A DNA stretch of 64,000 bases, from contig NW_020656077.1 in the NCBI RefSeq assembly GCF_003589595.1, positions 6,322,748 to 6,386,747 of the forward strand, read 5' to 3'. This document shows, one piece after another, positions 29,425-63,411 of the stretch (positions are counted from its first letter, which is position 1; every line of letters begins with the position of its first letter). Both the position numbers and the translations under genes were made by a program. The stretch is from Hyposmocoma kahamanoa (Eukaryota; Arthropoda; Insecta; Lepidoptera; Cosmopterigidae). The notes under the pieces were generated by a model. It had not been told where the DNA came from. It made no database searches and saw only the letters and a program-made list of their open reading frames with translations.

Positions 29425-29514
29425 TTTCAGTTTTTGTTGAGTTTAGGTTGTATTTAGATATCATCGTAATTAAATAAGAATTCTTATGTGGCCAAGTCAC
29501 CAATACAATAAATA

Positions 29515-32500
29515 ATGTCGTCTTTCGTAAATCATAGGAACGAGAGCTCGTTGAGTGTTGACGAAGCGTGTACAAAGGACAATGTTACTTATTACAAGAT
29601 TACAGTTAAGGTGGGCGCCGTGTACTGGATCGTGTGGCATCGGTACAGTGACTTTGTCGACCTGCATGATAGGCTGGTCACCGACCACGGCGTGGCTAAA
29701 GATCTGCTTCCGCCAAAGAAGGTCATCAGGAATAAAACACCAAAGTTTGTGGAGCAGAGACGTGAAGCTCTTAACGAGTACCTCAAGAGCGTGTTCAATT
29801 ATTTGACGCTGACGATGCCGTACGAGTTCGCGCACTTCCTTGATTTTCATTTGTATGATATTTTCTTCCTGTTGCAAGATTTGGCAAAAAAACTTTTCCT
29901 AGAAGGAGATAAAATGCTGCAAAACGAAAAGTCACACAGGTTCACGCCGATGGAGGTGAGTCCTTGAGTACAATATTATTGTGCAACAAATGTAGCAAAA
30001 TTCCGCTAGTTTATTCTGTACCTCAGCTGGAAGAGCGTCAGGCATGGTATGCTGATGGCACTGATTCCAATTCATCCAGATTGAAGGGATTTTCTTTGTA
30101 TTAATTAAAGATTATATTTTAATGTTTTACTAAAAAAATTTACATTTGATATTAAATATTAAAAGTTGTAAACAGGCAAGTGAAATTACTGCTTGCTCGG
30201 TATGCACTGCTTTGGTACTTGGTACTTGGTGTAACGGGCTGGTGTCCGCAACTCGACGTCAAGGCGCCTACTTTGCGTGTGGTATGCACTGCTTTATTCA
30301 CACTGTCTTTTTATCTTAGATGCAGGCACATAATGTATGCATACCCACTACAAATATAACAGTTAGTAAAAATAAAAAAGAAGAGGAACTGAAAACTGTG
30401 AAAGGGGTTCACTTTTGTGACACATGACTACTTTATGCCAACATCAAAGTAAAGGATTAGGAAATGGATGGGATGAAAACCAGAAAGGAAATATTTTAGG
30501 GCCCCATGGTGTTATTGTCATTTCAAATTAAAAGCCTTTATTATTCCCATTGACTTACAAATAAATGGACGATGGGTCTAATACAAAAACCACGAAAAAA
30601 ATGTCCCAAGTCAACCTATTTAAACGTAGTGACATGTCAAGGAATATGAAAAAGCTAAAACGTTGAATTTAAATTGTAATGTCATCACAGTACTGTCTAA
30701 TTTTGCTTGCTTCGCTGTCAGTTGAACAAACGAAGACTAAAGCGTGAATGACGCTCTGTATACGATTTTAACGCCCTATAAGTTCGGACACTTTTTAGCA
30801 CGGACCCGACGTCCATATAATTGTAAGTCAATGATTATTTCTTAATTAATTAACATAGTTTTCAGTAAATTCAGTTTTAAATATCATTGAAGTTACAATA
30901 TAATGTAGATTTAGAAAATATATAATTTTATTTATATATTTATTATTATTTTAGATTAAGGACCCCATGTTGGGTATAGGCCTCTTCCAACTTCTTCCAC
31001 TTAACTTTATCCTTTACTACTTCTATCCAGTGTGGTCCTGCTGTTGACAGGATGTCATCTCCCCATCTGCTCCTTGGTCTTCCTATTTTTCTTTTACCGT
31101 TTGGACCATTCCATTTTATGTTGGTGTCAGTCCATCTGCTGTCTGTTAATCTGGCTATGTGTCCCCCCATTGCCATTTTTGTTTCTTGTCATATTGTAGG
31201 GAATTTCATATCTGTGATTTTGGCTCTGGATCTTATTGTTTTGCTATTACTCTTGTTGTTTCTTCTTATTTTCAAGATATTTCTTTCCATACCTCTTTGT
31301 ATTTTTCTTAAGTTTAGCTTTGTTAGTAAGCCCATGTCTGACAGCCACAAGTCAAACTAGGTAGGATGCATGTGTCTATTACAGTTTTTTCAACATTAGG
31401 TTGAAGTCTCCTTTTAATATTTCTTTGTGGTTCCAGAAGTTTTTCCAGGACATGGAAAATTATTCTACATTCTATATTTCTTCCCAAATATAGTGATCCA
31501 CATTTTCAATTTTCTTCTTTCTCAATTACTACTTTAGGTGTAATGCTATTTGTAATGATTTTTGTTTTTGAATAGTTCATTTCCAGTCCTACTTTTTTGC
31601 TTTCTGTATTGAGACTATTGAGCATTCATTTCAGGCCTTCTATGTTTTCTGAGAACAATTACTATATCATCAGCGAATCTGAGTTGTGTAAGGTAATTTT
31701 TATTTACTTTGATGCCTTCTTTTTTCCTGTTCAGTGCCTGAAATATGTCCTGAAGTACTGCAATAAACAGTTTTGGTGATAATGGGTCTCCCTGTCTTAC
31801 ACCCCTGTTGATGGGGAATTCTTTTCCCTCAGTTTGTAATCTTACTCAGCTCATGCTATTGTTATATATCTCTTTTAAGGTGTTAATATGTTTGGTGGGT
31901 ATCTTGCAGTGTTGCGGCTTTCCATATGGAGCTGTGGGAGATGCTGTCGAAGGCCTTTGTATAGTCAATGAAGGCTAAATAGAGAGGTTTATTAAATTCT
32001 TTATATTTCTCTATTATTTGTTCCACTGTTTGCGTGTGGTCGGTGGTTGAGAAGTCTGATCTAAAATCTGCTTGTTCTATAGGTTGGTGCTTATCTATCT
32101 ATTCAGTTATACTACTGAGGAGCAGTGAAGTAAAGGCTTTGTATAAGCTCGATAGGATAGTTGGCAATATTGAGCAGATCTCCTTTTTTGTAAATTAGTA
32201 TAATGTCTTAGGTATTTTTTCTGAGTCTAAAGTACAGTTGAATAAAATTGTAAATGGTGTAGTTAGAACTTTAGATGCTGATTTTAATAGTTCGTTGCTT
32301 ATACCATCAGTTTGGCCTTCAGCTCTTTTCTTATATCCATTACTACTTTAGGGTAGTTTTAGTCACATTGTATGTTGTTCGGAAAATATTTGTTGTTCTT
32401 CAGTACTTCGACTTTCCTCCATGCTAGGGTTAGAGATACGAGTATTGGTCTTGATCTTTTACTGCTGATTTTTTACCTAACCTTTGTGTGCTGCTGATTT

Positions 32501-35500
32501 CCCATTCGTCGAACTCTCTGAATCTTACTTTCTCGCTTATTTTATTCAGTGTCTCTAAGACCAATGTTATTAGTTCACTATTGTTGGATTCAGATTCTTT
32601 AACACCATGAAGTATTAGATTATTTCTTCTGACAGCCCTTTCCAGTCTGTACATTTTTGTTTTTAGAGTATCTATCTCTTTCTTGAGTGTCCTGTTTTGT
32701 TCGATAATTGGAGCTATTTTTTCTTCAATGGTTTTAGATAGTGAACTCGTCAGGTGATCAGATTTTTTCTGCAACTCTGCTCTAAGTATCTCCAATGATA
32801 GTTGGGTCAATGTAATTCTGTTTGCGATCAAGCTCCAGCAACGAAAAAAAATATTGTCATTTACCTATTATGTTACTTTAAATTTAAAAAATAAGGTAAA
32901 TACATGGAACAAACAACTCCGAACTGTAATTAGTGGTTATCACAATAGATCAATCAATGGATGGAGTGATGAGAGGCCGCATATGCCCCGAATAAAGCCA
33001 CATAATAATAATAAATTAATCTTTTTAGCCTTGGGAGAGGCGAGTCTAAAATAGGTATAATAATAATAATAAGGTAAACACAGATCTAGAAAGACGACCT
33101 TATTCCTGATCACATGATTACATCTAATAAGGGTATCGCCACATTTATCGACACAGAATCGTACTAAGACAGAAAAAGTTATATGTACATGCAATAAAAG
33201 CGCCAAAGACGTAGTGCATGCGGCGGTCCGAGCGGCAATGAAATGCCCAACCATTTTTTCACTCTTATTGCATGTGGACATAAAGCTGACCAGCTTAGTG
33301 CGACTCTGTCTATAAGTGTGGTGACTCCCTACCTGTAACAGTATGGAAAGTGGCACAAACTAAGTCAATAACATCAGTTGTAACTCTTAACTAACGGGGC
33401 TGATCCCGAGTAGGTGGCGCCACGGGTAAATACAACTCTAAGTTCTCTCTTAAGTTACCATGTTAATACTCTTTTTATATTCCTTATCTATTATGTTTAT
33501 TATATGTAATGAGTTAAAAATTATTAAAATTTTCCAGCTTCACGCAATAAGTGAACGTCTAAAAATTGCATGTCCACCGAGTGAGAAGGAGGATCAAATG
33601 TATGACTTTAGCCATGTACTGGACTTCTGCTCTCAGCTGCGAGCACTCAATGTTGAAGGCAGTTATGAGAAGCTTGGGACCAGCAACATAGTGCCCAACG
33701 AACTGCATTTTGACCTAGTGTCCTTTAAGAATTTGGTAAACTTGAAAATTTTGGGTGTTCCCATGGCATGCATACAGAGTGTTGGTGAGTACACTTGAAA
33801 TAGTAATTTTTTTTAGTATATTGGTTTATTTCTGTGGATGATGATTCTCATTCGAAATAGATGCTAAGAAGTTGTGTTGTGGTTACCACTCCCTTACATT
33901 GTACATCATACTTTACAGTAATTATTATAAGATTGTGTGATGAGTATGCACACTATGCTAAGGCAGGAAAATCAAAAGTCTCTACCCTTGACGTGATCTG
34001 TATGAGACTAGTCATTAGACTTATATATCAATAAGAAATTCAATCCGTATTAACGAAAAACGAAGTCACAGCATTATTATTATGAATATACAGATAGCTT
34101 TCCAGAATAACATTTCATCTCAAAACACTTTTTTATCAAGAAGACTATTCAAAAAACTAAAGTATGTCATAAACCTACCCAATGACATCAAATATGATTA
34201 TTTTAACCAATGGAAAGCTGACTGTCTAATTCATAATAAATTTTAGCGCGTTCTGAATGCAGTTGATTAAATAAGTAAGAAAATTAACATTGTGATTCAG
34301 GCTATTATTCTTGAAAAGCGATATACAGTTGTATGTATAAACCATATACAATTGTATGATGACTCATACATAAATATATTCAAACTCAGTCATACTGCTA
34401 TAGGTTTTTTGTAATCAGTTCATACGCAATTAATACAATTTTTTGTATATCTTGTGTGTCTTGCTTCGTAAATAACAGTGTAATGCGTGCTCTAGAAAGA
34501 ACTACAATTTTTCATAATTTATTACCCCTGTTCTAAAGAAAGGTTCCAAAACAGTTATAACTAACTATAGACCCATCTCTAAATTGTGTATTGTGTCTAA
34601 GGTGATGGAAAAAATTGTTTATACCTAAGTTTATTCGGCATTGAAAAACTCATTTAGTCATTACTCAACATGGCTTCCTTTGAAAAGGCCTACAGTATCA
34701 AATCTAGTTTTGTTAAATGAATACGTCTCATTGTCTATGGACAAAGGATACAAAGTAGATGCCATCTATACTGATTACAGTAAAGCATTTGATAGAATTG
34801 ATCATGTTATCCTTTGGACTAAACTTTCCAAAATTGGTATATGGGGTGATCTATTACGGTGGTTCTCTTCGTATATTAATAATAGATCTCAAGAGGTAGT
34901 CGTTAATAATTATATATCCAGTTGGGTTACAATACCTAGCAGTGTGCCACAAAGTTCATTATTAGGGCCGCTGCTTTTAATTATTTTTGTTAACGATATT
35001 GGTGATTGCTTTCGCTTCTCTAATCTGCTGAGCTTCGCAGATAATATGAAAATATATGCCAAGATTTCTTCAGTTGATGAAGCTACTGCTCTCCAATCCG
35101 ATTTATCTCGTCTTGACGATTACTGTGTTAGCAATAAGCTAGACCTTAAACCCTCTAAATGTTTCTCAAAGACTTTTTCGCGTAAATTTAATACTATACG
35201 TACCTCGTATAGCTTGAGAAACATTGATCTTCAACATAAGATAGTCATGAACGATCTGGGGATCATTCATGATTCTAAGCTAATTTTTGTTACTCATATA
35301 GATGCTATTGTTTCCCAAGCTATTAAGTCACTTGGATTCATAATACGGAATTCAGTCAGTTTCTCAAGACCTAAAACTCTCTGGATACTGTATTGTGCGT
35401 ATGTCCGTAAATTGGAATATGCCTCCCAAATTTGGAATCCTTGTTATCAAATTTATGTAGACAGAGTTGAACTAGTCCAGGAAGAAATTATGAAAATCTT

Positions 35501-38500
35501 ATGCAATAAAATGGGCAAGTCTTTTAATTTAATCGAATATCCACGTCTTTGTAAGGATCAACACATATTGCCTCTTATTACTCGCCGAAGTATTGCTGAT
35601 TTAGTGTATTTGTTAAACATCAGAAACGGTGATGTCGACTGTCCCGAATTACTGAGTAGTATTGTGTTTAATATACCTACGCGTTCCATGAGATACTACC
35701 GTCATGTTGCAGTTCCGCCGCCGCTGCACAGTGGGCTGATTTCGAAAAGTGTGGACTTAAGGCTTGAAATTGTTAGGATCGGATTCTACTAGTCAATATG
35801 ATAATTTTATGTTCTGGAACTTTTTTCGTATCTTCATCTATACCAATATTATAAAGAGGTAAATTTTTGTAAATTTGAATATTTGTATTTCTGGAACTAC
35901 TCAACCGATTCAGAAAATTCTTTCATTAATAGAAAGTTACAGCATCCCCGAGTGATATAGGCTGTTGTAATAGGATTACTATTGGAATCTTTATACGGGG
36001 CGCAACTAGTAGTTATAGTTTTTGAGTAATAACACTTTAAAAAATGTTTGTAGAAATATTTAAGATTTGACATAATTTATTTTAATTTCGATATTATGCG
36101 GTACATTCTCGACACGAGAAAAGATAGCACACATAAAATTAATGCCAATCAAAAAGATAATAACATTATTAATATCAAGACGCAGCAGTCTCATCACCCT
36201 AAAATGTCACTTGTTTTGCTAAAAACACACGTGTAAACAATGGGGAGCTTATCATAAACACGAACAAAAGATCAAGGTTGTTAAGAAATATGCTTATCTT
36301 TGACAATTGTGGTCAAGTTAGAATAATAGCAGGTAGTAATTAGGTCAGTTTTTCCCATTCGAGTAAATTTCTCTCAGAACGTGATTACATTTCGTAAGAA
36401 ACGCACTACTTATTTTCAAATAATACCCTTTTCTTGGAAGTTTTATAAAAATGGTTGGTGAATTGGTGACTAACCTAGACTTATTTGTAAAACTAAAAAA
36501 AAGTGGCAATATTAAAAATGCTGCGGCATTATTTGATATTATAAAAATTAGTTTAAACAAAAATTTAAGCGAAGACAATATCAAAAAGTTGAAAGCGTTT
36601 TGTGCAACATGTTGTTCTAATCTTCACAGAAATTGGCTCAGTGCTAATAGAAGAGAAGAAGATTGTATAAAGAAATATAGTAAATGGTTGGATGCAGATG
36701 TATTATGGCCCGATTATGTTAGGAGTGCTTCAGAACAAAGCAACGAACCATCTACGACCACGCCTATTACATCAGCACAATTTGCAACATCATCAAAAAT
36801 AAGCGGTGGAACCTATACTGAGTTGAGTCCAAGAAAACCTTTCTGTGATTTAGGGCCTAAACAAAAAAAGAGTCGCGCTGAGAATATTGATAACACAATA
36901 CCTTATGATGAGATATCGTACGTACATTCCATGAAATGAAAAGCTGATGGTCATGGTGACATTGCCAAAATCGTTGATTACTTGCTTAAAAATCCACAAG
37001 ATGTGAAAAAAGTAAAAGAATGTATTAGTAACAAAACTGAAAAACCATTGTTTGATGCAGATGAGGCTTTAGGTTTGTTTGTATCACGAAAACTATCCAA
37101 GTGGCAGTATAATACATTGAGAAAAAGTGTTGCAGAAAAAGGTGTGCATATATTTCCTTCCTACTTTAAACTCCAAAAAGCAAAACAGTCGTGCTATCCA
37201 CCTAAAGAGGAGATTACACTAACAGAGACCACTGCTCAAATAAAATTGCAAGCGCTCTTAGATTTGACAGCAAGCAGATTATTAAAAGCTATACCGTTAA
37301 ATGACGATTGTAAACAAATGAAACTAATAAGTAAATGGGATTTTGACGGTGCCTCGAATCAAGTTACATATAAGCAAACAATAGAATCAGAAACGGAAGA
37401 TAATGGAGATGATTCCAGCGTATTTATGGGAAGTTTAGTGCCCATCAAGTTAGTTTCTGGAGAATCAACGATTTGGGAAAACGACTCGCCAAATTCAACA
37501 CATGTGTCGCCCACTATTTTTTAGATTCTTTAAAGAGAATAAAGCAACCGTAATACAGCAAAAGACATCAGAAGAGTCTGAAATTGACCAACTGCAGACT
37601 ACAAAAGTAGAAGATATTGAAATTACTCATTCCTTACTGCTTACTATGATAGACGGTAAAGCCACAGCAATTTTAAGTGAAACATCAATCCAACGATGTT
37701 ATATGTAGGTATATGTAAAGCGTCTCCCAAAGAAATCAATGAGTTAGATCTTACATCATCAAAAAATATAGATACCGAGTTATATAAATATGGCCTATCC
37801 TCATTGCATATGTGGATACGTATGAAGGAGTGTATTCTTCACATAGCGTATAGATTAGATTTGAAAACGTGGGTTGTGAAAGGTGAACAAAAAGCCGCTC
37901 TGGAAACTAGAAAAAAAATTATTCAGGACGCCTTTAAAGTTCAAATGGGTTTATTGGTTGATGTTGTTAAACAAGGTCATGGTACAACGAATGATGGAAA
38001 TACGGCAAGACGATTTTTCTCAAACTATAAAACATCAGCTTCATTCGTCATTACAGGTGTTGATGAAAATTTTATTAAAAGGTTTGCCACAATTTTGCAA
38101 GTCATTTCTTCGGGACAAACAATAAATATAACAAAATTTAAAGAATATGCTGAAGTAACTATGAAGTCAATATCGACAGATGTCGATATTGACAAAACCT
38201 TAGGTAGACTTGCTGATATTTGAAATGCAATAGTTGAAAGAAATTGTTAAAAGCGTTTGCTATTTGGGTATTGTCTGTCAGTCGTCATCATCGTCTGTCG
38301 TCATCTTTTAAACTCGATATGTTTCTGTCAAATTTTTGTTCTGCTTGGTTTGTTAATTTATTATTTAGTGCTTTGTTAATCCTATTTAAAGTTTGGAACT
38401 TCTTAGCATGATAATATAATACTTTTTCTATTTCTAGGGAAGTTTTATTTTTAATAATAATATACAACAAAAGAATTTAAAAAGTCAATGTATATCACTA

Positions 38501-43200: not shown

Positions 43201-45084
43201 ACTTTTTTATTTTATTTTATAAGAAATGAATGTAAATAATCTCTGTACAGAGTACTAACAAACCGACCTCAAAAGTCATTCCTTCCCTAGTTTGTCACCC
43301 TTAGAGGTGGAACATTTTCTTCAAATTTAAACGGACCACAACCGAGGTACTCTCTTTCCAACAAAAAATTAAAATGTTAATAACTAATAAATATAATTAA
43401 ACACAAATATTGTCGAAATACAACGACATCAAATAAAAATAAAATTATAATTTCTTATCGAGTTCTTAGGTTTTCGCTATAGTTACACATAGGAAATGAA
43501 ACTATTTTTCCGGATTCGAATTTGGAACCGTGACCATGGGACCTTTAAAGGGCCCGAAACGTCGGTTTGTTTGATAAAACAAATATACGCGATTTATAAT
43601 CCGGAAATATAGTTTCATTTCCTATTATAATTTCTTCCTCAGAAATTCCTCTAAACTGCAAAATTCGTTATCCAATAAAAGGAGTTTGGTCGGGTATAAT
43701 ACATTTCGTCTTTATCTTTTTCGATTTGCGGATCGTCGGTTCATAAAATCGGTGACCTATTACTGCAAATTTCTCGTTGCAAGTTCGGTACAATGGGTAA
43801 CGAATAATTGCTTTGGCAAAATATGAACCCATATTATAATTAAGGAAGTTCACCAAATGCGTATATAGAATTTAAGCTTATTTTTAAGGATTGATTTGGA
43901 AGTTGTAGGATTTTAGTATTTGGTTTGACTTTGATCGTGCATGAACGTGGATCATGTTTATCGACACAAACGGTGTTATCGCCATATTTAATAGCACACG
44001 CGTTCCCTGTATCTTATCAAATATTACATTTCCTTGTAACAAAAAGCTGTAAATTAATTATATCTCATTATTAATTTTGGACTACAAATGATTTTTTATG
44101 TGTATTCGACGTTTAATTGTTGCTGTTTTTTTTTTGTACTCGTATTTGTAAATCTGCTCTAGGTACTCGCGTTTTTTTTACACCAAATAACGGGACACGC
44201 AACAAGCCTATTCATAACACTTGCAGTGCCACTCAGAGCTTTAAACCGCCAAGGTCCTAGGGGCACTGCCACTGCGCCCGTCACCCTGAGACATAAGTCG
44301 ACAAGTTCCATGAGCTCGTAATTTCACCAGCACCCGTGCCCTTCAAAACCTGAACGCAATAATGCTCACATCACTACTTGGAGGCCAAAATAGTTAAAGA
44401 GGCAGTACTTCCCCGTACAAACTCATTCACAATGAGCTCTACTGTTACTTCATATTCAGAAATGCTGTTTCATGGTCAAATTTTTATTTACAGAAATGGA
44501 AGAAACTCTCTCTGGTAAACTTCTCAAGCAACAACATTCGTAATGTCGATTGGGGGATCAAATTGGTCCCTAAACTCCAACATTTGAGTTTTTCGTCGAA
44601 CAAGCTCACTGAACTCTGTGATATATCGTGCCTTCACGAGCTTCGAGTGCTCAACCTGTCAATGAACAATTTCTCGGTGTGCGACAACTGGCACGCTAAA
44701 ATTGGCAACATCGTTAAAATTGATTTGTCGCAGAACAAAGTCGAATCTCTTCAAGGTTTCTCGCGTTTGTACTCTTTAGAGAGCTTGGACCTGAGCTGCA
44801 ATCTTATACAGGACGTGGAAGAAGTCCAGCACATATGCAACTTACCGTGCTTGGAATATCTGTGGTTGACAGCGAATCCTGTGGCGTCATCAATAGATTA
44901 TAGGGTTAAAGTTATAGAGCAGTTTAACGCACGGATGGCGGAAATCTGTCTAGACAACGAGAAAGCTTCTGAGAAGGAACTGGACACAGCGAGGGTGCTT
45001 CAAGCGCTGAGGGTGGTCAAGGAAGGCAGGAAGCCTAGCTTCCTTCAAGATAGTAGTACGAGTCATACCTTTAATAAAAGTTGA
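29515..45084 (+). CDS. Nisch: Nischarin (PX domain plus leucine-rich repeats), four exons
   Basis: This is a membrane-recruited scaffold of the nischarin/IRAS family, known in mammals to bind phosphoinositides through PX and to act in integrin, Rac/PAK and endosome signalling. Exons: 29515-29955, 33538-33784, 41468-41586, 44494-45084. All donors are GT, all acceptors AG, and phases agree (0, 1, 0), giving 465 codons. Residues about 10-120 form the PX domain, with the basic WHRYSDF, a PPKK turn and FVEQRREALNEYL. Exons 2 and 3 link to leucine-rich repeats in exon 4 (LQHLSFSSNKL, LRVLNLSMNNF, IVKIDLSQNKV, LESLDLSCNLI, LEYLWLTANPV). The start ATG is the first in the frame and suits the PX fold. 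The protein stops after the repeats, so it lacks the long C-terminal part of vertebrate nischarin. An AATAAA lies at 45380. Confidence 0.9.
30015..30110 (+). repeat. Degenerate SINE, family B
   Basis: CAGCTGGAAGAGCGTCAGGC and a decayed B box (TGATTCCAATTC) match the family B unit. It lies just after nischarin exon 1. Confidence 0.5.
30548..30833 (-). mobile_element. CATTGAC MITE, long subfamily
   Basis: The element is 286 bp, with the extra internal block that includes AGCGAAGCAAGCAAAATTAG on the other strand. Duplications are ATTATTCC and ATTATTTC (7 of 8). It lies in nischarin intron 1. Confidence 0.88.
30940..32835 (-). mobile_element. Non-LTR retrotransposon remnant with endonuclease region missing
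   Basis: On the minus strand, 32831-32430 encodes a coiled-coil leader (LKKEIDTLKTKMYRLERAVR, then NNLILHGVKESE). After about 30 bases this passes straight into the start of a reverse transcriptase domain (ISNELLKSASKVL, GDLLNIANYRPISLLS). Further pieces follow in several frames: AFIDYTKAFDSISH, INRGVRQGDPLSP, LRFADDIV. The C-terminal end, 31176-30946, reads MGGHIARLTDSRW..GRPRSRWGDDI. Many stops and shifts are present. The endonuclease domain expected between leader and RT is not there. It sits in nischarin intron 1. Confidence 0.75.
34520..35792 (+). mobile_element. Jockey-like non-LTR retrotransposon fragment, reverse transcriptase, defective
   Basis: A 383-codon frame (34641-35792) holds reverse transcriptase motifs: IYTDYSKAFDRIDH, a VPQSSLLGPLL segment where GVPQGS is usual, and LLSFADN where FADD is expected. 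Upstream, from about 34535, a stop-broken piece reads KKGSKTVITNYRPISKL. The change of the second catalytic Asp to Asn and the broken start mean that it is inactive. Endonuclease and ORF1 parts are absent. It lies in nischarin intron 2. Confidence 0.8.
35837..36008 (+). mobile_element. Helitron-like non-autonomous fragment
   Basis: It starts TCTATACCAATATTATAAAG and ends CTAG between A and T. The middle (CTCAACCGATTCAGAAAATT, CCCCGAGTGATATAGGCT) matches a repeat I know as common in Lepidoptera. The 3' hairpin was not clearly seen. Confidence 0.4.
36451..38223 (+). pseudogene. RAG1/Transib-like DDE transposase, broken and 3' truncated
   Basis: Three frames together give one protein in the intron between nischarin exons 2 and 3. 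Recognisable parts are LSKWQYNTLRKSVAEKGVHI, SKWDFDGASNQ (first catalytic Asp, RAG1 D600 position), VPIKLV..IWENDSPNST, CRPLFFRFFKEN, LLTMIDGK (second Asp, D708 position), a split CYIC zinc pair, GLSSLHMWIRMKECILHIAY and GTTNDGNTARRFF. Breaks: an in-frame TGA at 36937-36939, a one-base shift near 37500, and an 8-base insertion with a stop near 37700 inside the CYIC motif. The frame ends before the region that would carry the catalytic Glu. Terminal inverted repeats were not found. RAG1-like assignment rests on motif order and spacing (about 106 residues between the two Asp), not on a search. Confidence 0.7.
39267..39556 (+). mobile_element. CATTGAC MITE, long subfamily
   Basis: The element is 290 bp. 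Perfect duplications GAATGAGT lie at 39259-39266 and 39557-39564. It lies in nischarin intron 2. Confidence 0.9.
40192..40222. repeat. (AAT)n microsatellite
   Basis: A run of about nine AAT units in nischarin intron 2. Confidence 0.9.
41021..41297. repeat. Foldback element
   Basis: The arms include GTATCGTATCTCAAAATTGC and CAAGTTTACAGGGGAG, matched by the complement at 41240-41297. It ends about 170 bases before nischarin exon 3. Confidence 0.7.
42330..42590 (-). repeat. GTAGCAGTAG repeat
   Basis: Reverse orientation, beginning GAGTGACGGGACGAACAAG, in the last nischarin intron. Confidence 0.65.
43457..43623. mobile_element. Foldback element with perfect 13-bp target repeat, copy B
   Basis: The same family as 26732-26910. 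Perfect 13-bp direct repeats ATTATAATTTCTT lie at 43444-43456 and 43624-43636. A diverged relative may lie at 13740-13890. Confidence 0.72.
44180..44450 (-). repeat. GTAGCAGTAG repeat
   Basis: Reverse orientation, ending about 45 bases before nischarin exon 4. Confidence 0.65.
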
Positions 45085-55880: not shown

Positions 55881-56656
55881 GCCGCCCCTGTAAATGTCTC
55901 ATAATTGTAACTGGCCATTATTTAAAATATATTTATAGCCTACCACCTGACGCAAGCATGTAAACTATAATAATTATCGATAAGAAGAATAACTTTTTTA
56001 TCGATTCATCAACTTACGTTTTTTTATCTCCTCTTTTTAAATTAACGCCTTTTATTAGTTTTTTTTATAAATATAAAAACATAAAAATGTTGAAACATGC
56101 ATTTCTTTATAATATCTCACATTTTAAATGGGATAATCCTTTTTTCAAGTATACGATTTTTTTTCTTTTGATATACCTACATATCATATTCTGTTACGTG
56201 TATATTAGTTGACTTATGGATAAATTGATAATAAATGAACTGCATTCAAGGTAACACTATCATTATGGTTAAGCATATCTACTAAATTATAATCAAAAAT
56301 AATATTTTTTCCCTTTTTTCATATAGGTCAAATCTTCCGTTCAGTAGGTTATGTTAGGTTAGTATATGAATTCTTGAGTCTTAGTTTTGAGGCTCAACAT
56401 GAAACTATCAGTTAATTTATACAAATCAAACATTAGCACAGAGCAGATTAAAATATAGATCGATTTAATTTTTTTTATGACTCTGAGAAAAAAGGATCAA
56501 TAATTTCAAAAAGATGACCGTTTAGATTTTAGGCCTGCTGCTTTTACAAATTTAAAAATGGTCATTTAAATACGTGCCAATTTAAATTAGTGCGGCAGAA
56601 AAGACCTGCCGCTACTAGCTCTCGCATAACGGATGGCGTGGCCGACTAGTTTGACT

Positions 56657-58225
56657 CTACTTAGGCAAACCATGTAGGGCCTGCTCTACTAAATGGTCAT
56701 AAATAGTAGACAAACCTTTCGCCGTAAAATTAGCATTGTTAAAAAATAAACTAAAATTTTGCAAAACTAATTTACGCATCGGGAGACATTTTAAGGTTCC
56801 AGATTTTATATAGTCTGTGCACAAACATAGCAGTACAAGCAAGTTACATAACATCGTATTGAAGACGAACTTGTTGGAAAAGTTGATGACTAAATCGTCG
56901 TTGCAATTCTTAAGACCTTGTATATATTCGTACACCTCCTTTATCTGGTTTTGGACATATTTGTGATTCTTCCGAGAAATACTACTCCTGAAGCCATAAA
57001 TACCAACCACCTTATTAATATTCTTTATGAAAGTTACTGTAGCGGTGGAGTCACCTAAACTAGGAAACATGACTTCTCTTTGCATACGCTCTATCCCTTG
57101 AGCTACCGATTGGTTCCAAAGACTAGACACTATTCTATCCGTAATCTGCAGCTCATTTCTATTGTTATGGAGTTCCTCCACGAAGCTGTACTCGATCAAT
57201 TCTTCATTGTGATACAGACGCCGCTTCTGGACAAACAGTTCTTTCATTAATTTCCACAGACGTTTGGGGTCAATCATCAAATAGTATTTGGTGTCGTTGT
57301 GCATGAAATAAGGTTTAAATGGCGCTGCATCAAAATTTGCGCCCAGGGCGCTCGCTAAATTTAAACTGGACATGTTTCCATTCAACGTAACGGTTATTAC
57401 TCGAAACTTTGATGCAGACAAACTATCTATGCAGAGCTTAATGAGACTAGCTTTTTGTGAAGGTGTAAAATTTCTTCCAAAGAATTGTCCAATGGGGAAT
57501 TTCCTATCAGACCTCATGGTGACAGCTATAATTATTAAGGCTTCATTTGCTAAATCGATTTGATCTCCATGCAAATGATTGCCTACGTCAGCATAACCAT
57601 AATAGGCGGTGGCAGTTTGATCCATCGGAATCCTACACTCAACATCTTCTCGAATTTTGACTTCATACACGTGGAGGATCCCCAATAAGTCTGCCGCTGT
57701 ATGATTGGTCAGTGTCATTATTTCTATTGAACTCAGTGTGATGCCGGGCCAGCCCCGTGGTTGCTGATACCACATCGATATCACACTGGGATGAGGTAAA
57801 CACAAAAAAAAATTCCTTCGGATTGATTCGTACGTCTCCGGACTATAAAAATGAAGTGTTATAGCGAATGTTTTTAAATCTAACAAATATGACTTATCTA
57901 CACAGTCAACAGACTTTTTGTTAATTAAATGTTGTACAAGTTTCTCAGGGCATGTCGCCATCACGGTGCACATATTATCACAGATATCCTTATGGTTCCG
58001 TAACATTTGAAAGATCTCCGTCACTTTACATGCAAGTCCGGTGTTGTGTGAAGATTTCTTGTTGATTGATGGTATCTGTCGATGCGAATCGCGTTGTTCC
58101 CTGGTTAAAATAATAACAACACCATTAATTGATTTATTGCATGAAAGGCTTGGTACAATCCCGCGTCGCGTATAACATACAAATCTTGATTGATTACAAT
58201 CTGCACAACAACAAGAAAAGTGCAA
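56657..58225 (-). CDS. P-element/THAP9-type transposase-derived ORF, probably co-opted, possibly fused to the kinase
   Basis: The open frame of 522 residues resembles P-element and THAP9 transposases from about residue 66 onward. Segments seen: a helical lead-in, then KTFAITLHFYSPETYESIRR..LCLPHPSVISMWY (about 118-153), then the RNase H-like core (EALIIIAVTM..RKFPIGQFF, LIKLCIDSL, VITVTLNGNMSS), YYLMIDPKRLWKLMK and a GTP-binding-insert-like region. It ends soon after the third catalytic motif. The residues that align to the catalytic D, D and E are Y187, N282 and S492, and the CH before LKL is KR. No N-terminal THAP zinc finger is seen nearby. Residues 1-41 look like translated intron. The coding part may really begin at 58100, after an AACCAG acceptor in frame with the upstream kinase. 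Strictly an independent gene, a fused exon or 3' UTR are all possible. Confidence 0.75.
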   Translation of the reverse strand: MHFSCCCADCNQSRFVCYTRRGIVPSLSCNKSINGVVIILTREQRDSHRQIPSINKKSSHNTGLACKVTEIFQMLRNHKDICDNMCTVMATCPEKLVQHLINKKSVDCVDKSYLLDLKTFAITLHFYSPETYESIRRNFFLCLPHPSVISMWYQQPRGWPGITLSSIEIMTLTNHTAADLLGILHVYEVKIREDVECRIPMDQTATAYYGYADVGNHLHGDQIDLANEALIIIAVTMRSDRKFPIGQFFGRNFTPSQKASLIKLCIDSLSASKFRVITVTLNGNMSSLNLASALGANFDAAPFKPYFMHNDTKYYLMIDPKRLWKLMKELFVQKRRLYHNEELIEYSFVEELHNNRNELQITDRIVSSLWNQSVAQGIERMQREVMFPSLGDSTATVTFIKNINKVVGIYGFRSSISRKNHKYVQNQIKEVYEYIQGLKNCNDDLVINFSNKFVFNTMLCNLLVLLCLCTDYIKSGTLKCLPMRKLVLQNFSLFFNNANFTAKGLSTIYDHLVEQALHGLPK

Positions 58226-58449
58226 CGTAGCAAGCCACGTAATGTAATAAACCGTCGCGTTCTTCCTTACACGCTGCTTTACTGTCCAAAATTGAACGTT
58301 ATATAGCTAACATAATTATTATGCTACGTTTACAACTATTGACTTCGCGTAGGCAAACAAACCTGGACGAAACTAAGTACCCAGGTCTCTACATGGTTTT
58401 AAGATTAATTTTACATTCAACAACTGCACAGAGTGGAGGGCTGTCTTAC

Positions 58450-58550
58450 CTTTCGTTCAAGTGTTCGTACAGCGGCGATAGGGCCCGCAGTTCAGCGGCT
58501 GTCGGACGCAGCAATGGATTCTTGAATAGCATCCGTTTGACTACGTCCAT
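58450..58550 (-). CDS. Last recognisable kinase exon, ends phase 2 with GTAAGA donor
   Basis: The exon begins after TTTTTAG and reads [20 protein letters not shown], continuing to the LYEHLNE region. It closes the kinase C-lobe. It ends with AG, two bases of a codon, before a good GTAAGA donor. Two acceptors follow on the minus strand. TGTGCAG ending at 58201 gives R-L-stop. AACCAG ending at 58101 gives R then the transposase-derived frame. Confidence 0.8.
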
Positions 58551-61500
58551 CTAAAAACATTTTAAGTTTTTGTAGCGCAAGAATCGCCGGAAGTCAGTCA
58601 ACTGAGAGTCTAATTCTTGGTAGTGCGACGACGGCGACCAATGAGAACGCCCGCTCGATATCGAAACTAAAATATTTAAATTTTTTACGCGGTTTCTTGT
58701 TGCGCCAATGGCAGAATGGTTTTTATAATGTTGCCCACTTAGAATAAAGGTTGCACATATGTAAAATTACTTTATTTAAATTTTAAATAAATAAAACAGA
58801 TTATTCTTTTTTTGGACATATTAACGGATGGTAGTTTTTTTTTTCAACCAAGGTGCGTCAGGTGGAAAACCACCTCTTCCACTAGCACCGATCAGAACAC
58901 GCCGGTGAAATTTTACAATCACTTGTGATTCAACTTAGCAAACTTATTTGGATTATCAATGTGCTCCAAAAGGAAGATTTTGCAGTCGGCGCAATTGTTT
59001 TAAAAATGCGAACTACTTGTTTTAACAGCTGCATATTGACTGCATGCCAGCCTCAAGCAGACTGTCCAGTCCAGTCAGCGACTAGGGACACGGAAAAGTG
59101 TCGATACTTGTTGGTATCGAATATTTTTCCCTCCGATACCGATACTTTTGTACTCGACACTTTTCATTCGATACTTTTCAGATATTAGTACTTTTTGACA
59201 AGTATCGTATCGTTTCGAATAATTGCTACATATGACACCTCATATCATAACGCTAGCCACCGAGCGATTTTTTTTTAAATGGCAACCTATACCACAAATT
59301 ACTTGACTGTATATTGTATGCCGCCATTTGTCTTCTAATAGAAGTTTGTCCCTTCTGAACGTTTGTTCTCAAAAGCAGGCAATACAGTATCCAAAACGAG
59401 AAACAGACCGTCACCAAATAGATTTTTGTTTTTAAGTAATTGCACAAAGGAGGAGTGGGAAATAGAAAATTTAAGTAACACAAATTATGTGAAATGACGA
59501 TTGATTGAATTGATCAAATGATTTAATTAATCAAATTCTTTTGTTATTTGTTTCAATTCAAAATCATAAATCAATAAAAAAAGACAAATTCATGTATTTT
59601 ATTCTGCCTTAAAGCAGGGAAAATCTGCAGGACACAAGTATCGATACTTCAAGGCTTAGACTTTAGACTTTTTCCATCCTCTAAGCCTCAAGGATACTTT
59701 TATGAGTACGACACTTTTAAATTTTTATTGATTGATATTCAATTGTTTTTTTGTGAAATTACTCCACTAGTTTGTTATAATTATTAATAGAAAGATCGAA
59801 CACTCAGAAAAAATTCCTTCGATCCGGCCGGATTCGAACCAAGACGTCTTGTAGCTTACCGTGCCAGACGCTATACCAACTAAGCCACAGAACGAACCAG
59901 CGGACCTCACGAATTTTTCTATGTGCTTGCGTCGTGTCTTTGTATTTCGTTTTCAACGACTTTTTAGTCGTAGCGCCATCTATGAGAAATCTACTAAGTA
60001 CGATAATTTTTATGCGATATTGCTCATGAATACAGTATCGATACATTTGATTTGATACCGATAATGTCCCTAAGCGAGCCGGCCTAACATAATTGCGTGT
60101 ATGTGTGCCTGTGTGGCTGCAAATTGACGTCACAAAAACTACATTTCTGCAACTGACCGCCGCTTTTCTGCTGCCGCGCCAGCAGTCTGTCTACGGAATA
60201 TGATCCTTGTATCATAACTTGATAGTTTGACAAATTACATGTGAAATAGTCAACTTTACAAACCAATACCCTTCGTCAATAGAAGGCTATTGGATTGTAA
60301 AGTCAAGAGGTACTAAAACACAGGGATTTACAAGATATTTCGTCAGTTTGTAGAGCGGGTGATTTGGCAAAATGTTTTGTTCAAGTTCTGTCAAATCGCC
60401 GGATTTGTCCTTTCTTTGTGTTTAATCTTTGTATTATTAATTACAACTTGATAGTTATTAACTCATAATATGCACTCTATAATATGAATCATAATTAGAT
60501 GTACATACAAAATGTAAACAAAGGTGTCAATAAAGCAAAAAAATACATGTAAAATTTTAGTTTCCCATTTTAGACGATTATAAATGCTTAGAACTCTTTT
60601 CAAGCTGTAATCTGATAAACCTTAGAACAATTCACATTTTTGCAATATGTCTTTTCATTAATTTCTTTTAATACAATAATTATAATAAAAGACTATGTTT
60701 AAGGTCGTAAATAATTTTATGACCCTGGTAACACAATCGGAATCAAAAACATTTTTTGTGCCGCCATTTTATCGTGTCATAGATGTCATTGGTGCTTGGT
60801 TTCTCGAACGCGAATGTTTCCTTGTCTCTGTAGCGCGTTTGTTAGATTATTAGGTGTTGTTGTTAAAGTTTTTGTTTATTGGTAATATTTTGTACAATAT
60901 ATAATTAAAATTGTAGAAAATGAGAACCTCTTCTTTTTACAATTCCGTTAAAAATAGAAGGTTTAGCACAAATGTATTCACCCTTTGACAATGACATTTC
61001 AAGACATTCCTTTGTTTACATTTTGGACATCTAATTATGATTCATATCTAGCGTGAGTGTGATAATTAGCGTCCGACTATAAAAGTAGTTTCATTCATTA
61101 AAAAAACCATCTGACCTCATTAGGGTGAGTTTCTTGGAACTTTTTTGGATAGATGCCTTTACGGACTTCGTCAAAGGTTTTGACGCGTTCATGGTTGGAG
61201 CCGATCGGATAGAACAGCTCGAAGAGGTTCAGGCCCATCGCATAGATGTCCACTTTATAATCGTAGTCACAGTGACCGCCACGACGCTGTTCTGGCGAAC
61301 TGTACAGCGTGGTACCTGGGAATATAAATATATATATATTTTAATTTATTCATTTACATCACGCAACTATGACGGACTATTATATTAAGGACTTCTTTTT
61401 CTTGACAAAGAAAGAAAAAGAAAACAACGATAACCCAGAATACTCAGACCAAAACCAACTTAGAAATGTTCGTTTTTTAAATTGGCCCAAATCGGGAATC

Positions 61501-63411
61501 GACCTCATCATCAAGCGCTCATAGTACTAACTGCTGTGCCACCGAAGACCATGAGCACAACGTAAACTGAACCCGACCAAGCGCCGCAGGCCGAGCTCGA
61601 CCCCACCGTAGGTGGGGTACAGGACTCGTAGTATAATATGGAAACTAATCTAGACGAATTGCACTTGTCGGCGACGTGTGGCGCAATCTTGTGTCCGGTA
61701 CCTGGCCGCGGAATAGCCGATATAAGACTCCCTTCGGCCAAAAGTCCTCCTTCATGAAGGTCGACAGGTCCGTGACAAGAACAAACTTTTACGTTTTAAT
61801 ACTTTTGGATCTGTATTTGGTGGTAAGGTAGTAAGTTCAAACGTGTTAGCGTCCTCCCCGACGATCACCAACCCCTGCGTACTGCTATTTATGCTAGCGC
61901 TTTCTTTTTTTACCGCGCAAAGTTGTCACAGTTTAGTGCGGTGTATTTAAATATTTTGATTCTTGTACGAAAGTAAAACATACTTGTGCACACTCCTTGA
62001 GAACATCCTACTTATAAAAAATATGTTATAAAGTAAAAACTCACCAACTCCCTTAGTATGCCGGCGATGTTTTGAAGTTTCCGGCCCATCGGAGCCGCTA
62101 TCCCCCATGGTGGTGACCAGGCCGAAATCCCCCACCTTTACGCGTCCATCAAAAACAGAGAACAGAATATTCTGCGGCTTGAGATCGCGATGTATCAGCT
62201 CGTTGTTGTGAATGTACACCACGGCCGACACTATTTGACTGAACAGATTCCTCACCACCTGCAATAGTATCAACCCCTGCCCTTAACTACCATTGTCATG
62301 GGCAAAAAAACAGCTGATAGAGGATTGGACCTTATTGCTAAACATTATAATGAAAAGGGCCAATAACCCCATATTGAATAAATTGATTTTAAAACAAGAA
62401 GTGGAGCCATTTTGACAGTTTGTCATCTCGACGTGAAATACGTATCGTCAGCATATATTATCGAGTATATAGCCAGAAATAGAGACGAAATAAGGGCCAC
62501 CCCATCCATCCCTGGCAACTCATCAGTCAAATGGTACTGATAACATACTGTTAAATATTAACCCTCGTTTGCGCTGAAATCACAAATTAGAAAGCTGAAA
62601 TAGTACAGCGCCAACAACTGACCTATGTGTACGTGTCCGTCCCAAAAATATTCTGTATTTATTGTATTAAAGATATATATCTCTAGCTATGGGGGCTGTT
62701 CCATTCAGAGGTGTGGCAAAAACAGCAAGACATCTAATTACAAAACAAACGGAATCACATTTCATCGGTAATTAGATATAAAATTATGTAATTTTTATTT
62801 TTCGTCCTTTATAGCAAAATTCAAGTTAAACTGATCGATTTGAAGTGAAACAATTGACGACATCCGTCGATTCCTTTGATTCTCTCCAACTGAACTACGG
62901 AACGAACTAGCGGACTTTGCTTGTTGCAGATCTTTATTTATGGTTTTTAATGACTTTTTTGCCGTAGAGCCACCAGTGAAAAATCTATAAAGTTTTTCTT
63001 CACTCAGCCAGGTGCCTTTACAGCTACCAGCGGCTTGACTAGAGATATTACTTTAATAATTGTAATATTAAGTTTATTGTATATCACGATGTTTGACTAC
63101 CATGATGTTCAGTTATTATTTTGTGAAATTACTCCATTAAGTTATCGAACACTAAGAAAAATTCCTTAAATCCGGTTGGATCGGATTCGAACGGTGCATA
63201 AACGCGCGCCGCCGGGACGGCTAAAAATTGTCTGATTCCTCGAAATATATATATATATTTTAAATTTATATAAAAAAGAATGTAAAAAATAAACCTTGAT
63301 ATCTCTCGTCTCCAACTTATCGTTTTTCTGCAGCCAGTCAAAGAGGCTCTCGGGCTTGCAGAGCTCCATTTGGATGTAGAGAAAAGTGACGAGATTTTCA
63401 GGCACCGACTT
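58450..63411 (-). CDS. eIF2alpha kinase (HRI/PERK class), C-terminal part of kinase domain
   Basis: The enzyme phosphorylates translation initiation factor eIF2alpha under stress and lowers protein synthesis. Exons in transcript order: 63411-63295, 62258-62045, 61315-61116, 58550-58450, with phases 0, 1, 0, 2 all matching. The first visible exon holds the hinge (FLYIQMELC). The second holds IHRDLKPQN and KVGDFGLVT. The third has [28 protein letters not shown] and the [12 protein letters not shown] helix typical of eIF2alpha kinases. The fourth ends the domain with [18 protein letters not shown]. Catalytic Asp and DFG are intact. The N-lobe, with its Lys and glycine loop, lies beyond the window. 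YIHN before HRD resembles HRI; the hinge resembles PERK. A Bombyx HRI-like kinase (BeK) is a possible orthologue, which I cannot verify here. No coiled-coil tail exon of HRI type is seen downstream. Confidence 0.88.
59086..60073. mobile_element. Possible hAT-like element with TAGGGACA ends
   Basis: ACTAGGGACACGG..GTGTCGATAC at the left faces GTATCGATAC..AATGTCCCTA at the right. TATCGATAC-type motifs recur at both ends. A SINE is nested inside. Flanks AGCGAC and AGCGAG agree in part only. Confidence 0.45.
59780..59990 (-). repeat. tRNA-derived SINE, family B
   Basis: On the minus strand a TGGCTTAGTTGG A box and a GGTTCGAATCC B box stand in tRNA-like spacing. Family members are at 3437-3565, 30015-30110 (plus) and 62845-63000 with 63128-63200 (minus). 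Not scored as a tRNA gene, since no clover-leaf acceptor stem closes. Confidence 0.65.
62462..62785 (-). repeat. Dispersed 300-bp repeat, copy B
   Basis: The reverse complement of the repeat at 8415-8720, with about 20 percent change. It lies in the kinase intron upstream of exon 62258-62045. Confidence 0.65.
62845..63200 (-). repeat. SINE family B fragments in kinase intron
   Basis: CTCCAACTGAACTACGGAACG and, further on, ATCGAACACTAAGAAAAATTCC with GGATTCGAAC match the family B repeat. The two pieces are separated by unmatched sequence. Confidence 0.5.

Follow-up and report, generated by a model that had tools for sequence, protein, structure and literature searches.

A candidate host-transposase fusion gene on a duplicated PERK kinase in the moth Hyposmocoma kahamanoa

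A stretch of 64,000 nucleotides on contig NW_020656077.1 of Hyposmocoma kahamanoa, a moth of the superfamily Gelechioidea, carries on its minus strand the exons of a PERK-like kinase followed by an open frame derived from a P-type transposase; this stretch is called the window below. We consider it likely that the locus is a host-transposase fusion gene on a duplicated PERK, and the kinase and transposase parts probably make one protein, as read from the gene structure and from a joined relative. Joining the splice donor at 58449 to the splice acceptor at 58101 yields an in-frame open product, predicted to comprise 863 amino acids. In one relative, P0006, the C-terminus of PERK, a 17-residue linker and the transposase core follow one another in a single predicted protein, leaving no space for an intron.

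The kinase copy and its junction with the transposase exon

The best protein match to the kinase part is the PERK record P0020 of H. kahamanoa itself (1280 kinases matched, of which the best 120 were examined). P0020 maps exon by exon to the contig of the window, at window-equivalent positions 142491 to 94138 and on the same strand as the kinase copy. Therefore, the kinase of the window is a second, partial PERK copy located directly downstream of the intact PERK gene. A tblastn comparison of full PERK with 154 kb of the minus strand detected exons for the luminal sensor of the endoplasmic reticulum and for the transmembrane helix only in the canonical copy. The earlier note on this DNA had seen no HRI-like tail exon for the kinase. 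An HRI-like kinase whose tail exon is missing was ruled out, as P0020 is the best match and the last exon of PERK is present; no HRI-like tail is to be expected, because the kinase is a tandem PERK duplicate, by prediction soluble. The exons and signals are:

Window-equivalent 69642-69556 (L009 5642-5556): 5' remnant of PERK exon 8, out of frame and upstream of the start of the duplicate, marking the transmembrane deletion
Start of the kinase copy, minus strand: shortened homologue of PERK exon 8, in-frame stop close upstream, without transmembrane helix
67857-67750, minus strand: exon of the kinase copy, open and in PERK phase
66462-66240, minus strand: exon of the kinase copy, open and in PERK phase
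63295..63411, minus strand: exon A, homologue of a segment of PERK exon 12 (our numbering), phase 0 at both ends
62045..62258, minus strand: exon B, carrying the catalytic motifs HRDLKPQN and DFG
61116..61315, minus strand: exon C, with the end of the activation segment (SPEQ)
58450..58550, minus strand: exon D, homologous to the terminal exon of PERK, ending in phase 2
58444..58449, minus strand: splice donor GTAAGA, within what was the coding end of the last PERK exon
58201..58207, minus strand: alternative acceptor TGTGCAG, ending at 58201 and giving HLNERL-stop
58133..58138, minus strand: AATAAA in the intron between exon D and the transposase exon, possible polyadenylation signal of a kinase-only form
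58101..58106, minus strand: splice acceptor AACCAG, Thr-Arg frame position matched in P0002, P0003 and P0005
56657..58100, minus strand: terminal exon derived from the transposase, 480 codons followed by the stop TAG at 56657-56659
56051..56056, minus strand: AATAAA about 600 bases past the end of the transposase frame, which may serve polyadenylation of the fused form

Where PERK continues after its transmembrane helix with FFAPKVSSSSP, the kinase copy reads VPKMSSSTP. Its exons keep the PERK phases without a stop, so that eight exons, including the transposase exon, are open and in phase, and exons A to D are each bounded by AG and GT. The copy lacks PERK exon 10, which contributes to the kinase insert loop. 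It retains the catalytic kinase motifs intact, and among solved structures its best relative is PERK.

Exon D was confirmed with the coordinates, the phase 2 end and the GTAAGA donor that the earlier note had assigned to it; it is preceded by TTTTTAG and ends with HLNE plus two codon bases. The AACCAG acceptor ending at 58101 likewise proved to lie in the transposase frame: the first base behind it completes AGG (Arg), and the frame then runs EQRDSHRQ... for 480 codons. A transposase frame of 522 residues, as previously given, was not reproduced; from stop to stop it comprises 549 codons, 480 of them past the acceptor. The last coding exon of PERK reads PLYEHPIVPPCAVVTT-stop and ends 11 residues beyond the point homologous to the donor, whereas the copy reads PLYEHLNER, TAA and DSPPLCAVV, the latter being a remnant downstream of the new stop (PERK: ...PPCAVVTT). 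Thus, judging from the two endings, a small change within the old PERK coding end made both the stop and the strong-looking donor AAAG/GTAAGA. Counted over both strands, the window holds six instances of the donor pattern [AC]AGGT[AG]AG.

The same junction allows the duplicated kinase to end on its own, either at HLNER, when unspliced reading through the donor immediately meets the in-frame TAA at 58448-58446, or at HLNERL, when the nearer acceptor at 58201 is used and reaches a stop after one codon (HLNE-R-L-stop, as foreseen in the earlier note). The transposase exon would then be a 3' untranslated region or separately transcribed. An AATAAA at 58138, ahead of the transposase exon, agrees with such an ending, as does PERK itself, which stops shortly past the homologous point. 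However, P0006 links both parts without a stop, and an untranslated region needs neither an open transposase frame nor the Thr-Arg found at the acceptor in three relatives. We therefore regard a kinase-only gene as distinctly unlikely and favor the fusion.

The intron between exons C and D harbors an element resembling a miniature inverted-repeat transposable element (60482-61047) with 24-nt arms that are 96% complementary.

Relatives of the transposase part

The transposase part matched 19 proteins, eight of which (P0001 to P0008) are close, with 37-97% identity, and all eight come from the source 'lgn'. The N-terminus of P0006 (MLSEDPAFRPTAAKLRRLWPLSEH) gave an ungapped alignment with the PERK end at a score of 82, compared to 72 for the window copy; when it was shuffled 300 times, no score came near this value (maximum 59). 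The comparison of kinase ends took in all 120 listed kinases. In addition, P0002, P0003 and P0005 continue upstream and have Thr-Arg where the acceptor lies in the window. The frame match across the junction, for which a one-in-three chance of accident had been conceded, is thereby exceeded. The fusion proposed in the earlier note thus gained further support from the join in P0006, while the HRI-like tail exon that it did not see is not to be expected in a PERK duplicate.

No kinase residues were found in P0002, P0003, P0005 and P0008, since 89 to 185 of 300 shuffles equaled their scores; this would fit genomic reads crossing the acceptor, which these sequences may be. P0001 and P0004 start at a Met inside the frame, downstream of the acceptor. 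P0007 and P0008 reach the acceptor region with neither Thr-Arg nor a clear kinase end.

A search with a profile of the junction yielded 21 matches, among them one further close relative, P0140 (71% over 38% of the query; 61% in later comparisons). In a tree of 23 sequences and 415 columns (FastTree local supports), P0006 is the sister of a group comprising the window, P0001-P0005 and P0140 (support 0.98), with P0007 and P0008 outside. Because P0006 is also joined and is the sister of the window group, the join would predate the split of P0006 from that group, unless it had two origins.

The relatives also bear on the possibility that an independent domesticated P-derived gene, starting at the first Met of the transposase exon (residue 32, MLRNHKDIC...), merely adjoins the kinase copy. 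A start at Met32 would give a 449-aa product, which is the source's own prediction for P0001; the helix-turn-helix match begins at about this residue, and the predicted P0002, P0003 and P0005 start at Mets shortly upstream of the acceptor. However, Met32 is absent in P0003, P0005 and P0007, and the frame of the window holds no Met upstream of it. Moreover, the window, P0003 and P0005 resemble one another in the stretch from the acceptor to Met32 (EQRDSH, EGRDSH and EQRGSH), though P0002 does not share it, and P0006 is joined to a kinase end. An independent gene accordingly has only a slim chance of being correct, and fusion to the kinase remains the preferred interpretation.

The transposase core and constraint on both halves

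The transposase exon encodes the P-transposase fold, in which the following domains were recognized:

57770..58003, minus strand: P-transposase helix-turn-helix (PF12017, E 1e-13)
57341..57748, minus strand: RNase H N-terminal domain (PF21787, E 2.2e-17)
56969..57127, minus strand: part of a GTP-binding insertion domain (PF21788, positions 64-115 of the 119 in the profile)

The catalytic residues of the fly P transposase are D230, D303 and E531, according to PMC7776569; the aligned residues of the window are Y, N and S. Within the RNase H domain, the first catalytic Asp is changed to Tyr (residue 145) and the second to Asn (residue 240). As judged from these replacements, the transposase core is catalytically dead. 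In agreement with the earlier note, which saw no THAP exon, neither the transposase exon nor the kinase part gave a Pfam match to a THAP domain, and a C2CH scan for THAP domains within single exons, covering both strands of 52-94 kb, matched once, inside the transposase, though a THAP domain split over exons would escape it. A leucine zipper is unlikely according to the alignment, because only about 32 residues precede the helix-turn-helix.

Inverted-repeat pairs flanking the exon (25 of 27 pairs examined) measured 16-27 nt with 72-94% complementarity and were mostly AT-rich; none was convincing, though decayed repeats could escape. A close second copy was not found among 51 genomic matches (itself included), the best other one being 37% identical and carrying a stop, and none of 26 pattern matches in viral contigs was confirmed as a relative. 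A profile of nine close transposase sequences, including that of the window, matched no solved structure at E 0.01; therefore, the likeness to structure 6p5a is based on the P copy of this genome and on the fold. Concerning P-type transposases elsewhere in this genome, six copies (L003-L008) with equal scores and 874-codon frames were observed. L003, the copy examined among them, is open over 854 aa and has the residues D, D and E, and this P family is possibly young or still active in the moth.

Constraint was assessed for both halves. Comparison of the kinase copy with PERK over 379 codons gave a ratio of nonsynonymous to synonymous change (dN/dS) of 0.35 (bootstrap 0.26-0.47). At 32 sites that differ between PERK and the duplicate, six outgroup PERKs are uniform and identical to one of the two; the change occurred in the duplicate 27 times and in PERK five times. 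Evolution of the kinase copy is relaxed but apparently not free of constraint. For the transposase part, the protein sequences of seven relatives were compared with neutral simulations. Simulation of six diverged relatives to the same identity (100 runs each) produced on average 9.5-17.6 stops with run minima of 1-8, whereas the actual frames contain none, a count to be read against a database that favors open frames. According to mean BLOSUM62 scores, changes are clearly more conservative than in the neutral simulation by about 3 standard deviations in P0003 and about 4 in P0140, and by about 2, which is borderline, in P0001, P0002 and P0006.

These data also address a scenario in which both halves are decaying, i.e. 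a PERK pseudogene next to an old P-element relic, with open frames by luck and P0006 as a chance arrangement. The faster change of the kinase copy relative to PERK and the near-neutral types of change in the transposase of several relatives would suit it. Eight exons open and in phase, the upper dN/dS bound of 0.47 and the missing stops in six relatives, the last with the reservation just made, speak against it, and we rate its probability as very low.

Several observations weigh against the favored interpretation as a fusion gene. In the locus itself, the donor of exon A (GTTTAT) is weak, and the TAA within the donor of exon D together with the intronic AATAAA permits an unspliced kinase-only protein ending in HLNER. 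Among the relatives, the joined form was seen in P0006 only, and no clear kinase residues are present in seven of the eight close ones. The N-terminus of P0007 (PSDRP...) resembles the end of PERK, but seven of 300 shuffles score as high, which is suggestive at most; for P0008, 151 of 300 shuffles reached its score and no kinase end was found. A protein carrying the whole kinase plus transposase was encountered neither among the 19 proteins of the transposase search nor, according to Pfam columns, among the best 120 of 1280 kinase matches. The 21 junction-profile matches (84-406 aa) included no kinase Pfam domain and no joined protein, and the kinase end was absent in all eight examined. Finally, mean BLOSUM62 scores of P0004 and P0005 were indistinguishable from neutral, and the fraction of positive-scoring changes exceeded 2 standard deviations in P0003 only, so that constraint on the transposase sequence would be moderate at most.

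Proposed history, known systems and neighboring frames

The fusion gene may have arisen in three steps. Tandem duplication of the 3' half of PERK would have been followed by loss of the luminal sensor and the transmembrane helix from the copy and gain of a new ATG start; a donor arising in the last coding exon of PERK could then have captured a downstream P-type transposase relic in frame. The predicted soluble protein would carry a complete PERK-type eIF2alpha kinase domain at its N-terminal side and a tail in which a helix-turn-helix is followed by a catalytically inactive RNase H fold and by part of a GTP-binding insertion domain. The gene structure gives good support to the predicted protein, whereas the function of this protein is inferred by analogy. 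Other eIF2alpha kinases are activated when an attached sensor domain pairs two kinase domains, and for this reason the transposase core is proposed as a new clustering or localizing module that may replace the lost luminal sensor, at the opposite end of the kinase. A bolder version, which we deem unlikely, envisages an eIF2alpha kinase of a new type, in which a PERK copy released from the ER membrane would use the dead P transposase core as a sensor of transposon or foreign nucleic acid or of GTP, cluster and halt translation, and would have been kept since before P0006 and the window split. The response would then run through the helix-turn-helix and the GTP-binding remnants.

Most known host-transposase fusions are from vertebrates and combine a DNA-binding transposase domain with a regulatory one. 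The locus would belong with these fusions, new being the eIF2alpha kinase as partner and the organism. It shares with them a downstream transposase exon, here apparently gained by splicing, lost catalysis and an open frame (in part PMC8700633), whereas here the partner is a stress kinase, the transposase is P-type and the host is a moth. With PERK/EIF2AK3 (P0020; PDB 4x7h, 4g31) the copy shares kinase domain, intron phases and insert loop through direct tandem descent, but it differs in lacking luminal sensor, transmembrane helix and exon 10, in that the terminal exon has become internal, and in the transposase tail. The tail resembles the P-element transposase and THAP9 (PDB 6p5a, 6pe2; PMC7776569) in its helix-turn-helix, split RNase H fold and remnant GTP-binding insertion domain. 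Unlike these, it has no THAP match, apparently too little space for a zipper, lost catalytic acids and a short C-terminus, and it is without a close second copy or convincing terminal repeats.

GCN2 is an eIF2alpha kinase with a C-terminal non-catalytic domain resembling histidyl-tRNA synthetase, and by analogy the window protein would likewise consist of an eIF2alpha kinase and, behind it, an inactive enzyme with a possible role as sensor or dimerizer. In contrast to GCN2, sensing by the transposase tail is hypothetical, and a sequence relation between the tails is not expected. Drosophila harbors domesticated genes in which the host has retained immobile open frames derived from P transposase, a further likeness to the locus; none of them is known to be fused to a kinase. 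Kinase-transposon fusion as such has precedent, because protein kinase domains in general are found together with many domains of transposons or viruses throughout eukaryotes, according to PMC12062965. Neither a fusion of kinase and P transposase nor a moth PERK duplicate was described in the titles and abstract openings listed by the literature searches.

The eIF2alpha kinases are distinguished by the sensor attached to a common kinase domain. If the interpretation as a fusion is true, deletion of the sensor and substitution by a transposase core would show how the integrated stress response can gain a new input, and transposase capture would extend from transcription factors to a signaling kinase. 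The intact neighboring PERK provides a built-in control, making the idea directly testable in moths.

Among the PERK models of other moths, P0030 of Helicoverpa armigera (817 aa) has a repeated DFG stretch and lacks the N-lobe, which suggests faulty annotation or assembly instead of a true duplication. Elsewhere in the window, long open frames at 36424-38223 (171, 194 and 180 codons), two of which were scanned and gave no Pfam match at E 0.01, lie beside a reverse transcriptase frame of 387 codons (34629-35792, PF00078) and possibly belong to another mobile element. The reverse transcriptase frame is situated between two plus-strand frames encoding a PX domain (29512-29967) and a leucine-rich repeat (44398-45084), which perhaps form one nischarin-like gene.
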